Source: Roseospira navarrensis
GTDB taxonomy: Bacteria > Pseudomonadota > Alphaproteobacteria > Rhodospirillales > Rhodospirillaceae
Direction: 5' to 3'
Length of the DNA stretch: 64,000 nucleotides
Assembly (NCBI RefSeq): GCF_009601025.1
Contig: NZ_WIVE01000006.1
Coordinates: 1-64,000, forward strand
Position numbers and translations under genes: made by a program. Shown one piece after another: positions 27,105-30,808 of the stretch (position 1 is its first letter; each line of letters opens with the position of its first letter). The notes beneath the pieces were generated by a model. It ran no database searches. It saw only the letters and a list, made by a program, of their open reading frames with translations, and was not told the origin of the DNA.

Positions 27105-27350
27105 TCAGGCCTGCAGGGTCTCGAACTTGGCCTGAAGCTGCGCCGGGGTCTCGGCGTGCGCCGGATCCTTGACGATGCACTCGACGGGGCACACGGCCAC
27201 GCACTGCGGCTCGTCGAAGTGGCCGACGCACTCGGTGCAGCGGGCCGGATCGATCTCGTAGATGATGGCGCCGGCCGTGATGGCTTCGTTCGGGCACTCG
27301 GCGGGGCAGGCATCGCAGTTGATGCACTGATCGGTGATCTTGAGGGCCAT
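27105..27350 (-). CDS. 2[4Fe-4S] ferredoxin (YfhL type)
   Basis: An 81-residue ferredoxin starting MALKITDQCINCDACPAECP. The first cluster motif is CINCDACPAEC followed by P; the second is spread over CTECVGHFDEPQCVAVCPVEC with the extra spacer seen in YfhL-type proteins. It should carry low-potential electrons. Divergent from korAB across a 344-base regulatory region, it is the natural electron acceptor or donor for KorAB. ATG 27350 is chosen over the longer frame because the protein starts exactly at the family start. Confidence 0.92.
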   Translation of the reverse strand: MALKITDQCINCDACPAECPNEAITAGAIIYEIDPARCTECVGHFDEPQCVAVCPVECIVKDPAHAETPAQLQAKFETLQA

Positions 27351-27541
27351 GAATTCAGTGTCCTGGTTGAAGGTGGCTCGGGTCCGCGCGGGCGCGGTCG
27401 ACCGGCGGCGGCCGTGAGGGCGCCCGATCCCCGCCACGCTATGCCAAAACCGCGCCCCGGACGCAACCGAATGGCTCGGCCCGGTGCGCCAACGGCGGCG
27501 GCGGGAGCGGCCGTGCGTATCCGGAATACCGCAAGGCTGCA

Positions 27542-27555
27542 TTGATCCGGGTCAA
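27542..27555. promoter_or_regulatory. FNR/FixK-type binding site between ferredoxin and korA
   Basis: TTGATCCGGGTCAA fits the FNR/FixK consensus TTGAT-N4-(A/G)TCAA exactly, and one more base pair on each side keeps the symmetry. Its centre is about 64 bases before the predicted korA transcription start, near the class I activator position of -61.5. Confidence 0.7.
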
Positions 27556-27577
27556 TGGGGGACGGGCCACGAGTCCA

Positions 27578-27606
27578 TTGAGGCGTCGCCAGAATGGCGC
27601 TATACC
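27578..27606 (+). promoter_or_regulatory. sigma70-like promoter of korAB
   Basis: TTGAGG (27578-27583) and TATACC (27601-27606) are separated by exactly 17 bases. Transcription would start near 27612, giving a leader of about 80 bases before korA. The rest of the 27351-27694 gap shows no gene. Confidence 0.6.
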
Positions 27607-27694
27607 CCGAGGCTTCATGGCCGGGCGGAGCGCCGTCCGGTGGACGGGCGGCGGGCGCGACACGCCGCGACCTGAACAAGCGGGAGCAGGACAG

Positions 27695-29416
27695 ATGGCG
27701 CTCTCTTCGGTCTCCATCGCCATGACCGGCAGTGGCGGTGCGGGCGTGATGACCGCCGGCCAGATCCTTCTGGATGCGGCCGCGAAGGCTGGCTACTACG
27801 GGCTGATGGGTCGCACCCTGGGCCCCCAGATCCGCGGCGGCGAGTCCGCGGCCCTGTTGCGGCTCAGCACCGAGCCGGTGCAGAGCCCCGACGACGGGTT
27901 CGACATCCTGGTCGCCTTCGACTGGGGCAACATCGAGCGCTTCCGCGAGGAACTGCCCATGAATCCGGGCGGCCTCATCATCGCCGACCCGCATGCCGGC
28001 GATGTCCCGGCGCTGATGCTGGACGCGGAACGGCGCATCGAATACGTGCCGTTCCACGCCATGTCCAAGGACATTCACGGCGGCCGCGTCAACATGGTCG
28101 CCCTCGGCCTGATCGCGGAACTGGTCGGGCTGGACCATGACTGCCTGGTCGAGCGCGTGACCACGCAGTTGTCCGGCAAGGGGCAGACCGCGCTGGACTC
28201 CAGCCGGGCCGGCCTGGACGCCGGGGCCGAGGCCGTGGTCGGCGTCAAGGGCGTGCCCCGGCTCGACCGGCCCAAGCCGCGCACCGGCGACCGCTGGTCC
28301 ATCACCGGCAACGACGCCGCCGGCCTGGGCGCCATCCAGGGCGGCGTGCGGTTCTGCGCGGCCTACCCCATCACCCCGGCCACCGACATCCTGGAGTGGC
28401 TGGCGCCCAATCTGCCCAAGGTGGGCGGCACCCTGGTCCAGTGCGAGGATGAACTGGCCTCGGTCAACATGATCCTGGGCGGCAGCTACGGCGGCGTGCC
28501 CTCCGTCACCGCCACGTCCGGCCCCGGCCTCGCGCTGATGACGGAGAGCATCGGGCTCGCCGTCGCCTCCGAAACCCCGGTGGTCATCATCGACGTGCAG
28601 CGCGGCGGCCCCTCCACCGGCATTCCCACCAAGTCCGAACAGGTGGACCTGAACATCGCGGTGAACGGGCTGCACGGCGACGCCCCGCACGTGGTCACGG
28701 CGCCCCTGTCCATCGGGGACTGCCTGTTCACCACCCAGTGGAGCGTGCATCTGGCCGAGGCCATGCAGACCGCCGTCATCGTGCTGTCGGACCAGACGGT
28801 GGGACAGTCGCGCACCATCATCGACAAGCCCGCCGAGATCGCCTTCATCGGCCGCCGCAAGGTCGCCGAGACCGTGCCGGGCGAGCGCTACCTGCGCTAT
28901 GCGCTGACCGCCGACGGGGTGTCGCCCATGAGCCTGCCGGGGACGGACGGCGGCGCCTACATCGCCGAGGGGCTGGAGCACGACGAGACCGGCCGCCCCT
29001 CGACCCAGGGCGCCCATCACACCGAGCAGCTCGCCAAGCGCCAACGCAAGATCACGGACTTCGACTACGGCGACCACTGGGCGCTGGTGGACGGCGATCC
29101 CGACGCCGAGGTGGCGGTGCTGACCTGGGGGTCCACCGCCGAGGTGGCGCGCGAGGCCGTCAACCGCGCCCGCGCCCGGGGCGTCAAGGCGCGTCTGGTG
29201 GCGGTCCGCCTGATCGACCCGGTTCCGGCCGACCGGCTGCGCTACGCGCTGGCCGGGGTGTCGCGCACCGTCGTGGTGGAGCAGAACCACGGCGGCCAGT
29301 ACCTGCGCCACCTGCGCGCCCACATGGACCTGCCCGGCCGCGTCGAGGCGTTCCATCGCCCGGGGCCGCTGGGTCTGCGTCCCGGGGAAATCCTCGCCCA
29401 CATCCTGAGTCAGTAA
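27695..29416 (+). CDS. korA: 2-oxoacid:ferredoxin oxidoreductase alpha subunit (2-oxoglutarate type), gamma-alpha fusion
   Basis: A 573-residue KorA. Residues 1-~190 are the gamma domain (MTGSGGAGVMTAGQILLDAA; GRTLGPQIRGGESAALLR) and ~205-573 the alpha domain (FCAAYPITPATDILEWLA; ATSGPGLALMTESIGLAVA; QRGGPSTGIPTKSEQVDL). With KorB it interconverts 2-oxoglutarate plus CoA and succinyl-CoA plus CO2, reducing ferredoxin. ATG 27695 has GGGAG/AGGA before it; the open frame upstream contains the promoter and FNR box. The gamma-alpha fusion without an own iron-sulfur domain is the aerobic/alphaproteobacterial form. Substrate preference is inferred from family resemblance. Confidence 0.9.
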   Translation: MALSSVSIAMTGSGGAGVMTAGQILLDAAAKAGYYGLMGRTLGPQIRGGESAALLRLSTEPVQSPDDGFDILVAFDWGNIERFREELPMNPGGLIIADPHAGDVPALMLDAERRIEYVPFHAMSKDIHGGRVNMVALGLIAELVGLDHDCLVERVTTQLSGKGQTALDSSRAGLDAGAEAVVGVKGVPRLDRPKPRTGDRWSITGNDAAGLGAIQGGVRFCAAYPITPATDILEWLAPNLPKVGGTLVQCEDELASVNMILGGSYGGVPSVTATSGPGLALMTESIGLAVASETPVVIIDVQRGGPSTGIPTKSEQVDLNIAVNGLHGDAPHVVTAPLSIGDCLFTTQWSVHLAEAMQTAVIVLSDQTVGQSRTIIDKPAEIAFIGRRKVAETVPGERYLRYALTADGVSPMSLPGTDGGAYIAEGLEHDETGRPSTQGAHHTEQLAKRQRKITDFDYGDHWALVDGDPDAEVAVLTWGSTAEVAREAVNRARARGVKARLVAVRLIDPVPADRLRYALAGVSRTVVVEQNHGGQYLRHLRAHMDLPGRVEAFHRPGPLGLRPGEILAHILSQ

Positions 29417-29429
29417 GGAGCGCGCCGCC

Positions 29430-30254
29430 ATGGATGCCGTCGTTGCGAAGCCCCAGGACTACAAGTCGGACCTCAAGCCGATCTGGTGCCCGGGCTGCGG
29501 GGACTTCTCCGTGCTGGCCGCGATCACGCGGGGCCTGGCCGAGCTGAACCTGCCGCCGAAGGACGTGGCCCTGGTCTCGGGCATCGGGTGCTCGTCGCGC
29601 CTGCCGGCCTATTCCACCCTCTACGGGTTCCACAGCGTGCACGGCCGCGCGCTGCCGGTGGCCAGCGGCCTGAAGCTGGCCCGGCCCGACCTGACCGTGC
29701 TGTCCGTGGGCGGCGACGGCGACGGGTTCTCGATCGGTGGCAACCACTTCGTCCACGCCTGCCGGCGCAATGTGGACCTGACCTACATCGTCATGGACAA
29801 CAGCGTCTATGGCATGACCAAGGGGCAGGCCTCGCCGACCACGCAGGCGGACTGGACCGGCTCCAAGCTCACGCCGGAGGGGCCGGGCGTCGCCCCGTTC
29901 CGCCCGCTGGAAATGGCGCTGTCGTCCGGCGCGACGTTCATTTCGCGCGCCTTTTCGGGTGATCCCATGGAGCTGACCCGGCAGGTCTGCGCCGCCGTGC
30001 AGCACAAGGGCTTCTCGTTCGTCCATGTGCTCAGCCCCTGCGTGACCTACCGGCCCGAGCAGAAGGGCTGGCGCGAGCTGGTCCACGGCGACTTCACCGA
30101 GCCGTATACGGATCGGCGGGACGCCTTCCTGCGCCTGCTGGACGACGACGGATTCACGACCGGCATCCTCTACCAGGGCGCCGCCGCGCCGTTCCAGCCC
30201 ATGCCGCGCGCCACCCAGTCCGTGGCGGACCTGGGCGACCAGTTCGTCATCTGA
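29430..30254 (+). CDS. korB: 2-oxoacid:ferredoxin oxidoreductase beta subunit
   Basis: A 274-residue thiamine-diphosphate subunit. IWCPGCGDFSVLAAI and GIGCSSRLPAY supply cysteines of the single [4Fe-4S] cluster, GDGDGFSIGGNHFVHA the ThDP/Mg motif and MDNSVYGMTKGQASPT the second ThDP segment. AAGGAG precedes the ATG, which lies 13 bases after korA, so the two are co-transcribed. Length and motifs fit the partner of a gamma-alpha KorA. Confidence 0.93.
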   Translation: MDAVVAKPQDYKSDLKPIWCPGCGDFSVLAAITRGLAELNLPPKDVALVSGIGCSSRLPAYSTLYGFHSVHGRALPVASGLKLARPDLTVLSVGGDGDGFSIGGNHFVHACRRNVDLTYIVMDNSVYGMTKGQASPTTQADWTGSKLTPEGPGVAPFRPLEMALSSGATFISRAFSGDPMELTRQVCAAVQHKGFSFVHVLSPCVTYRPEQKGWRELVHGDFTEPYTDRRDAFLRLLDDDGFTTGILYQGAAAPFQPMPRATQSVADLGDQFVI

Positions 30255-30304
30255 CGAGGCGGCCCCGCCTCCCGTCTTCTTCTGCCGCGAGATCAAGGAT
30301 GACC

Positions 30305-30808
30305 ATGGACAGCCTCGAAGAGTTCATCGCCCATGCCGTGGCCCTGGAGGAGGACTCGGCCGTCCGGTTCGACGACATGGCGGACTCGCTCGACGTCCAC
30401 CAGAACCACGAGGTCACGGACCTGTTCCGCAAGATGGCCCATTACTCCCGCCTGCATCTGGCCGAAGCCCAGAAGCTGGCGGAGGGGATGACGCTGCCGC
30501 ACATCAAGCCCTGGGAGTACAAGTGGCCCGACAAGGAGCCGCCGGAAACGCCGGGGATGGACGCGACCCACTACCTGATGACCCCGCACCACGCCCTTGT
30601 CATGGCCCTGGACAGCGAGAAGCGCGGCCACGACTTCTATGCCGCCCTCGCGGCCACGCACGAGAACCCGCGCATCCGCGAGCTGGCGCAGGAGTTCGCC
30701 GAGGAAGAGGCCGAACACGTCGCCCTGTTGCAGGCCATGCTGCTGCGCTATCCGGCCCCGCCGCCGGACTGGGACGAGGACATGGACCCGCCGGTGAGCG
30801 TGGATTGA
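30305..30808 (+). CDS. rubrerythrin/ferritin-like di-iron protein
   Basis: A 167-residue helical protein. Carboxylate and His ligands appear in AVALEEDSAVRFDDMA, KMAHYSRLHLAEAQ, ALDSEKRGHDFYAALA and EFAEEEAEHVALLQAM, giving the four-helix ferritin-like di-iron pattern; the rubredoxin domain of full rubrerythrins is missing. ATG 30305 is preferred since AAGGA lies at a better distance than for ATG 30299. It follows korB by 50 bases. A role in peroxide or iron protection of the oxygen-sensitive oxidoreductase is inferred from position. Confidence 0.82.
   Translation: MDSLEEFIAHAVALEEDSAVRFDDMADSLDVHQNHEVTDLFRKMAHYSRLHLAEAQKLAEGMTLPHIKPWEYKWPDKEPPETPGMDATHYLMTPHHALVMALDSEKRGHDFYAALAATHENPRIRELAQEFAEEEAEHVALLQAMLLRYPAPPPDWDEDMDPPVSVD

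Follow-up and report, generated by a model that had tools for sequence, protein, structure and literature searches.

An FNR-type box between a ferredoxin gene and korAB in Roseospira navarrensis probably serves the ferredoxin gene

FNR/CRP-type activators act from characteristic positions relative to the transcription start: class II sites are centred at -41.5, and class I FNR sites are centred near -61.5, -71.5, -82.5 or -92.5. The alphaproteobacterial FnrN/FixK proteins recognise the consensus TTGANCNNGATCAANG, and PMC4999443, in the portion drawn on here, describes the Rhodospirillales as carrying only FnrN, with cco, hemA, hemN, fnrN and cycA as the targets named. A second relevant system is that of Thauera aromatica, in which, according to the corresponding portion of PMC9973337, KorAB is a 2-oxoglutarate:ferredoxin oxidoreductase that works with a low-potential ferredoxin to supply benzoyl-CoA reductase. 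The locus described here shares features with each of these systems and departs from each. As in the FnrN/FnrL regulon, TTGANCNNGATCAANG is matched in full, an Fe-S regulator is encoded, and boxes precede fnrN itself and the cco genes; in contrast, neither a YfhL-type ferredoxin nor korAB is among the Rhodospirillales targets named in that portion of PMC4999443. As in Thauera, a 2-oxoacid oxidoreductase is paired with a low-potential ferredoxin, but the Thauera pair supplies benzoyl-CoA reductase (PMC9973337, same portion), whereas the genome studied here also encodes nifH and an aerobic 2-oxoglutarate dehydrogenase E1, so that KorAB would not be its sole 2-oxoglutarate oxidase. As in class II FNR/CRP-type promoters, the box is placed by sequence at -41.5 and there is no usable -35; unlike in the standard class II case, the -10 is poor and lacks T at -7, and the start is a predicted one. 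In the literature titles and abstract openings searched, we found no FNR control of a YfhL-type ferredoxin or of korAB, for which supplementary tables could contain an entry.

The window, a 64-kb stretch of DNA from this Rhodospirillales genome, contains a single match to TTGAYNNNNRTCAA, located between a minus-strand ferredoxin gene and the plus-strand korA gene (Table 1), where the plus-strand letters read TTGATCCGGGTCAA. On the minus strand the box agrees with all 16 specified positions of TTGANCNNGATCAANG, and on the plus strand with 15 of the 16. The original prediction had called this an exact FNR-type site, which is right for TTGAN6TCAA but not for the E. coli-type palindrome TTGATNNNNATCAA, from which it differs by one mismatch. 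The nearest named relatives of the window's KorA (71-76% identical across the 235 residues used as query) are those of Roseospira marina, a Rhodospira MAG and Rhodospira trueperi, all of which share the window's genus in the genome collection. No Rfam match to a structured RNA was obtained within 27300-27750, and the plasmid collection gave partial matches only, mostly to ferredoxin genes, with none covering 80% of the query. The rubrerythrin-domain gene lies directly 3' of korAB, perhaps in one operon with it.

Table 1. Features of the ferredoxin–korAB region, in window positions
Feature	Coordinates	Strand	Basis or remark
FNR/FnrN-type box, TTGACCCGGATCAA read toward the ferredoxin gene	27542..27555	-	Consensus match, kept in relatives
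korA promoter, TTGAGG (27578-27583), 17-bp spacer, TATACC (27601-27606)	27578..27606	+	Box centre at -64.5; equalled in 1/500 shuffles of the 139-bp stretch
Ferredoxin promoter, putative -10 hexamer TACGCA	27514..27519	-	TA at the same offset in 10/10 box loci
Ferredoxin gene, 81 aa, YfhL-family 2[4Fe-4S]	27105..27350	-	NF033683, 128 bits, above the cut-off of 86
korA, 2-oxoacid:acceptor oxidoreductase subunit alpha, ATG at 27695	27695..29416	+	TIGR03710, 557.6 bits, cut-off 482.75
korB, 2-oxoacid:acceptor oxidoreductase subunit beta	29430..30254	+	Best profiles PRK11866 (283.4 bits, below the cut-off of 402) and PorB_KorB (260.4 bits, below the cut-off of 261.9)
Rubrerythrin-domain protein, next gene after korB	30299..30808	+	PF02915, 50.2 bits

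The control at this locus is of an ordinary kind that was first read in the wrong direction: judging from sequence comparison, FnrN probably activates the divergent YfhL-type ferredoxin gene at low oxygen from a class II promoter. On the minus strand, 22 bp separate the box from the TA that opens the hexamer 27519-27514, whose first base lies 29.5 bp from the box centre. Counting from this TA, transcription is predicted to start at 27507, which would centre the box at the class II position of -41.5 and give the gene a long leader of about 157 nt. A TA stands exactly 22 bp past the box on the ferredoxin side in all ten family loci that have a box, a constant class II distance to the putative -10; at any other offset from 0 to 109, TA occurs in at most one of the ten loci on the ferredoxin side and at most two on the korA side (mean TA frequency about 0.02). 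This offset was found in the same ten loci that were used to count it, the ccoN/ccoG register described below being the only separate check, and, because they are drawn from four genera, the ten loci do not represent ten independent events. The remaining promoter elements on this side are poor. TACGCA matches TATAAT at two of six places and has no T at -7, while its first two places are T and A in 10/10 loci; the -35 slot has one to three matches out of six in nine loci and four out of six in L030, where the box carries a mismatch. The T at -7 and the promoters of Rhodobacter sphaeroides are treated in the portion of PMC10473679 drawn on here, which cites Henry et al. 2020. A second, vegetative ferredoxin promoter closer to the gene (TTGCGT-N17-CATAGC, 27466-27438), plausible in the alignment, was rejected, as 77% of 200 shuffles were as good.

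Under the proposed mechanism, the [4Fe-4S] regulator FnrN would bind the box at low oxygen and recruit RNA polymerase to the poor -10 without the help of a usable -35. More ferredoxin would then be available to carry low-potential electrons to or from KorAB, and possibly for nitrogenase, with korAB itself being driven by its own promoter, which has both hexamers. The gene pairing, together with the Thauera KorAB, suggests by analogy that KorAB and the ferredoxin exchange electrons at low oxygen. The divergent ferredoxin, which the original prediction had named only as a ‘perhaps’ beside korAB, thus becomes the favoured target on account of the phased -41.5 position. Beyond correcting which gene a regulatory site serves and giving a precise predicted start for it, this would extend the likely FnrN regulon by a low-potential ferredoxin in a bacterial group with nitrogenase. 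More generally, it indicates that when an FNR box lies between divergent genes, the gene it serves can be recognised by conserved spacing and not by how close a good promoter lies.

Among the relatives, a box with at most one mismatch to TTGAN6TCAA is present in 10 of the 21 family loci that have both a divergent ferredoxin and a readable korA start, and is missing from the other 11. For these counts, L016-L018, which duplicate L028, L029 and L027, were counted once, L045 and L049 were excluded as having no korA start, and G197 was left out for the same reason. The ten box loci fall in four genera (g1, g8, g14 and g20), and the boxes of g8 and g14 are asymmetric, with TTGC instead of TTGA in one half-site. 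Outside the family, 77 korA loci were available, ten of them with a divergent ferredoxin, and none of these ten has a box on which the 22-bp rule could be applied. Motif conservation, which had been put forward as a check, holds for the box in about half of the family loci and for its spacing toward the ferredoxin, but not for its distance to korA. In L046, the ferredoxin–korA region is without a box, and by eye TTGGTT can be read 17 bp before a TAGAGG that occupies the ferredoxin -10 position; from the sequence, an activator site has possibly been replaced there by a -35.

On the korA side, the TTGAGG-N17-TATACC promoter had been correctly recognised. Its proposed relation to the box was less exact: the box was expected near -61.5, and with the -10 hexamer set at -12 to -7 the start falls at 27613 and the box centre at about -64.5, 3 bp off; -61.5 would require a start just 4 bases past the -10 hexamer. 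Over the window and nine relatives this distance varies from -63.5 to -240.5. In the five g1 loci it is -64.5 (window), -113.5 (L027, Roseospira marina), -69.5 (L028), -63.5 (L029, Rhodospira trueperi) and -74.5 (L030), and in the five loci of other genera it is -240.5, -94.5, -188.5, -136.5 and -137.5, these distances being less sure in six of the ten loci because more than 10% of shuffles equal the korA promoter named there.

These figures bear on two alternatives in which korAB is a target. The first, which we regard as possible though considerably less probable than control of the ferredoxin alone, is that one FnrN dimer serves both genes, as a class II activator of the ferredoxin and a class I activator of korAB, such that enzyme and carrier rise together. 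Four of the five g1 loci have the box between -63.5 and -74.5 from korA and at -41.5 from the ferredoxin, as such sharing would have it; against this, L027 and the loci of the other genera (-94.5 to -240.5) lie farther out, and the phase differs even among the four near loci. The same dimer may aid korAB in this species, in an arrangement that is not conserved. The second, that of the original prediction, takes the box as a class I site through which korAB is activated at low oxygen, and it now appears unlikely. A good korA promoter does lie downstream of the box, and the distances in the window, L029, L028 and L030 lie between -63.5 and -74.5; but the spacing wanders over the ten loci without settling near the class I positions or keeping their phase, whereas the ferredoxin spacing is invariant in those same ten, the window's own -64.5 misses -61.5, and the korA promoter already has its own -35. 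What stands of the original claim of low-oxygen activation is the nature of the site, and what does not is its assignment to korAB.

Some support for korA as a target comes from other lineages. Among the 68 loci, one a member of the family, that lack a divergent ferredoxin, an exact box occurs within 400 bp in three, against 0.5 expected. L095 (G097) has boxes at -182 and -100 from korA, the first of which is followed, 22 bp on and toward korA, by a perfect TATAAT; the divergent neighbour is a gene for 6-oxocyclohex-1-ene-1-carbonyl-CoA hydratase of the benzoyl-CoA pathway (TIGR03200, fragment, 456 bits, slightly under the cut-off of 464). L138 (G241) has two boxes, at -264 and -206 from korA, each with a hexamer 22 bp away, which for one box is TATTGA on the side of korA and for the other TATTTC on the side of a divergent pyruvate:ferredoxin oxidoreductase gene; these hexamers count for less because the sequence near the boxes is AT-rich. 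The third locus, L120, has a box that is not in the 22-bp register. Since the boxes of L095 and L138 face korA in the class II register, control may fall on different genes in different lineages. We tentatively suggest a module that in the Rhodospira/Roseospira group and its sister genera is placed under oxygen control via the electron carrier, and that elsewhere has a class II box on korA, as in L095, or one each on korA and the divergent pyruvate:ferredoxin oxidoreductase gene, as in L138. If so, lineages would differ in which gene is regulated but share the -41.5 geometry.

As to the regulator, a search of the genome's ORFs in which only Crp/Fnr-like frames were considered yields a protein (L008/L142) with the marks of FnrN/FnrL. 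It has an N-terminal C-x2-C-x7-C cluster, a fourth, central Cys aligned in all orthologues (11-orthologue alignment), and an ETVSR recognition helix of the E-x-x-S-R type. We term it FnrN-like because it scores under the NCBIfam cut-offs of 300 bits for both FixK of Caulobacter (170.6 bits) and FnrL (136.7 bits). Orthologues with at least 49% identity are found in 11 of the 18 genomes searched, including all six g1 genomes and nine of the ten box genomes (window included; 49-76% identical to the window genome's protein). Of the genomes with a divergent ferredoxin but no box, six were within the search and one of these (G016) has FnrN, five more such genomes lying outside it. An exact TTGAN6TCAA stands upstream of 10 of the 11 fnrN orthologues (including L142-L151). 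Conservation, the FnrN-like gene and the boxes before fnrN itself together support the prediction of an FNR/FixK-type site that is likely to act at low oxygen. In the g1 genomes, a TATCA...TGATA-like element is also seen upstream of fnrN, on the other side of the box.

It is improbable that the box is bound by another Crp/Fnr protein, for example L010, a CxxC protein with ETTSR encoded on contig C122, or by regulators that vary from genus to genus. This would account for G020, which has the box and only a distant FnrN homologue (29%), and for the asymmetric boxes of g8 and g14, but it sits poorly with the presence of FnrN in every g1 genome and with the same kind of box before its own gene. 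That the box is a chance match without function is very hard to credit: although 6 of 100 shuffled windows contained one such match (0.06 expected), 5 of the 21 family loci have the exact TTGAN6TCAA in the ferredoxin–korA interval, against 0.05 expected from shuffles, and the ferredoxin spacing is invariant.

The preferred class II reading for the ferredoxin can be compared with other boxes of the same type. Genome-wide, TTGAYNNNNRTCAA occurs at 16 sites against two for a reversed control pattern, several of the 16 falling within coding frames. Across 58 sites, 29 were labelled intergenic by a crude GC-by-phase cut of 0.2, which placed the fnrN site L064 under coding. In 6 of the 28 scorable intergenic sites, a set in which the window's locus and three of its relatives are counted, a hexamer with at least 4/6 matches to TATAAT lies at offset 22, compared with at most 2/28 at the other offsets from 14 to 31. 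None of the fnrN boxes L064, L178, L182 and L186 has a -10-like hexamer at this offset. At the ccoN-type sites of the genus the hexamer 22 bp from the FNR box is AATAGT (L062) or GATAGT (L206, L209, L229), and at the ccoG-type sites it is TAACAG (L059, L225); gene identity was established by profile for L062 (ccoN), L059 (ccoG) and L063 (MarR-like), the rest being matched by site and flanks or hexamer. A MarR/SlyA-like gene is likewise preceded by an FNR box with CATAGT in the class II register (L063, L201).
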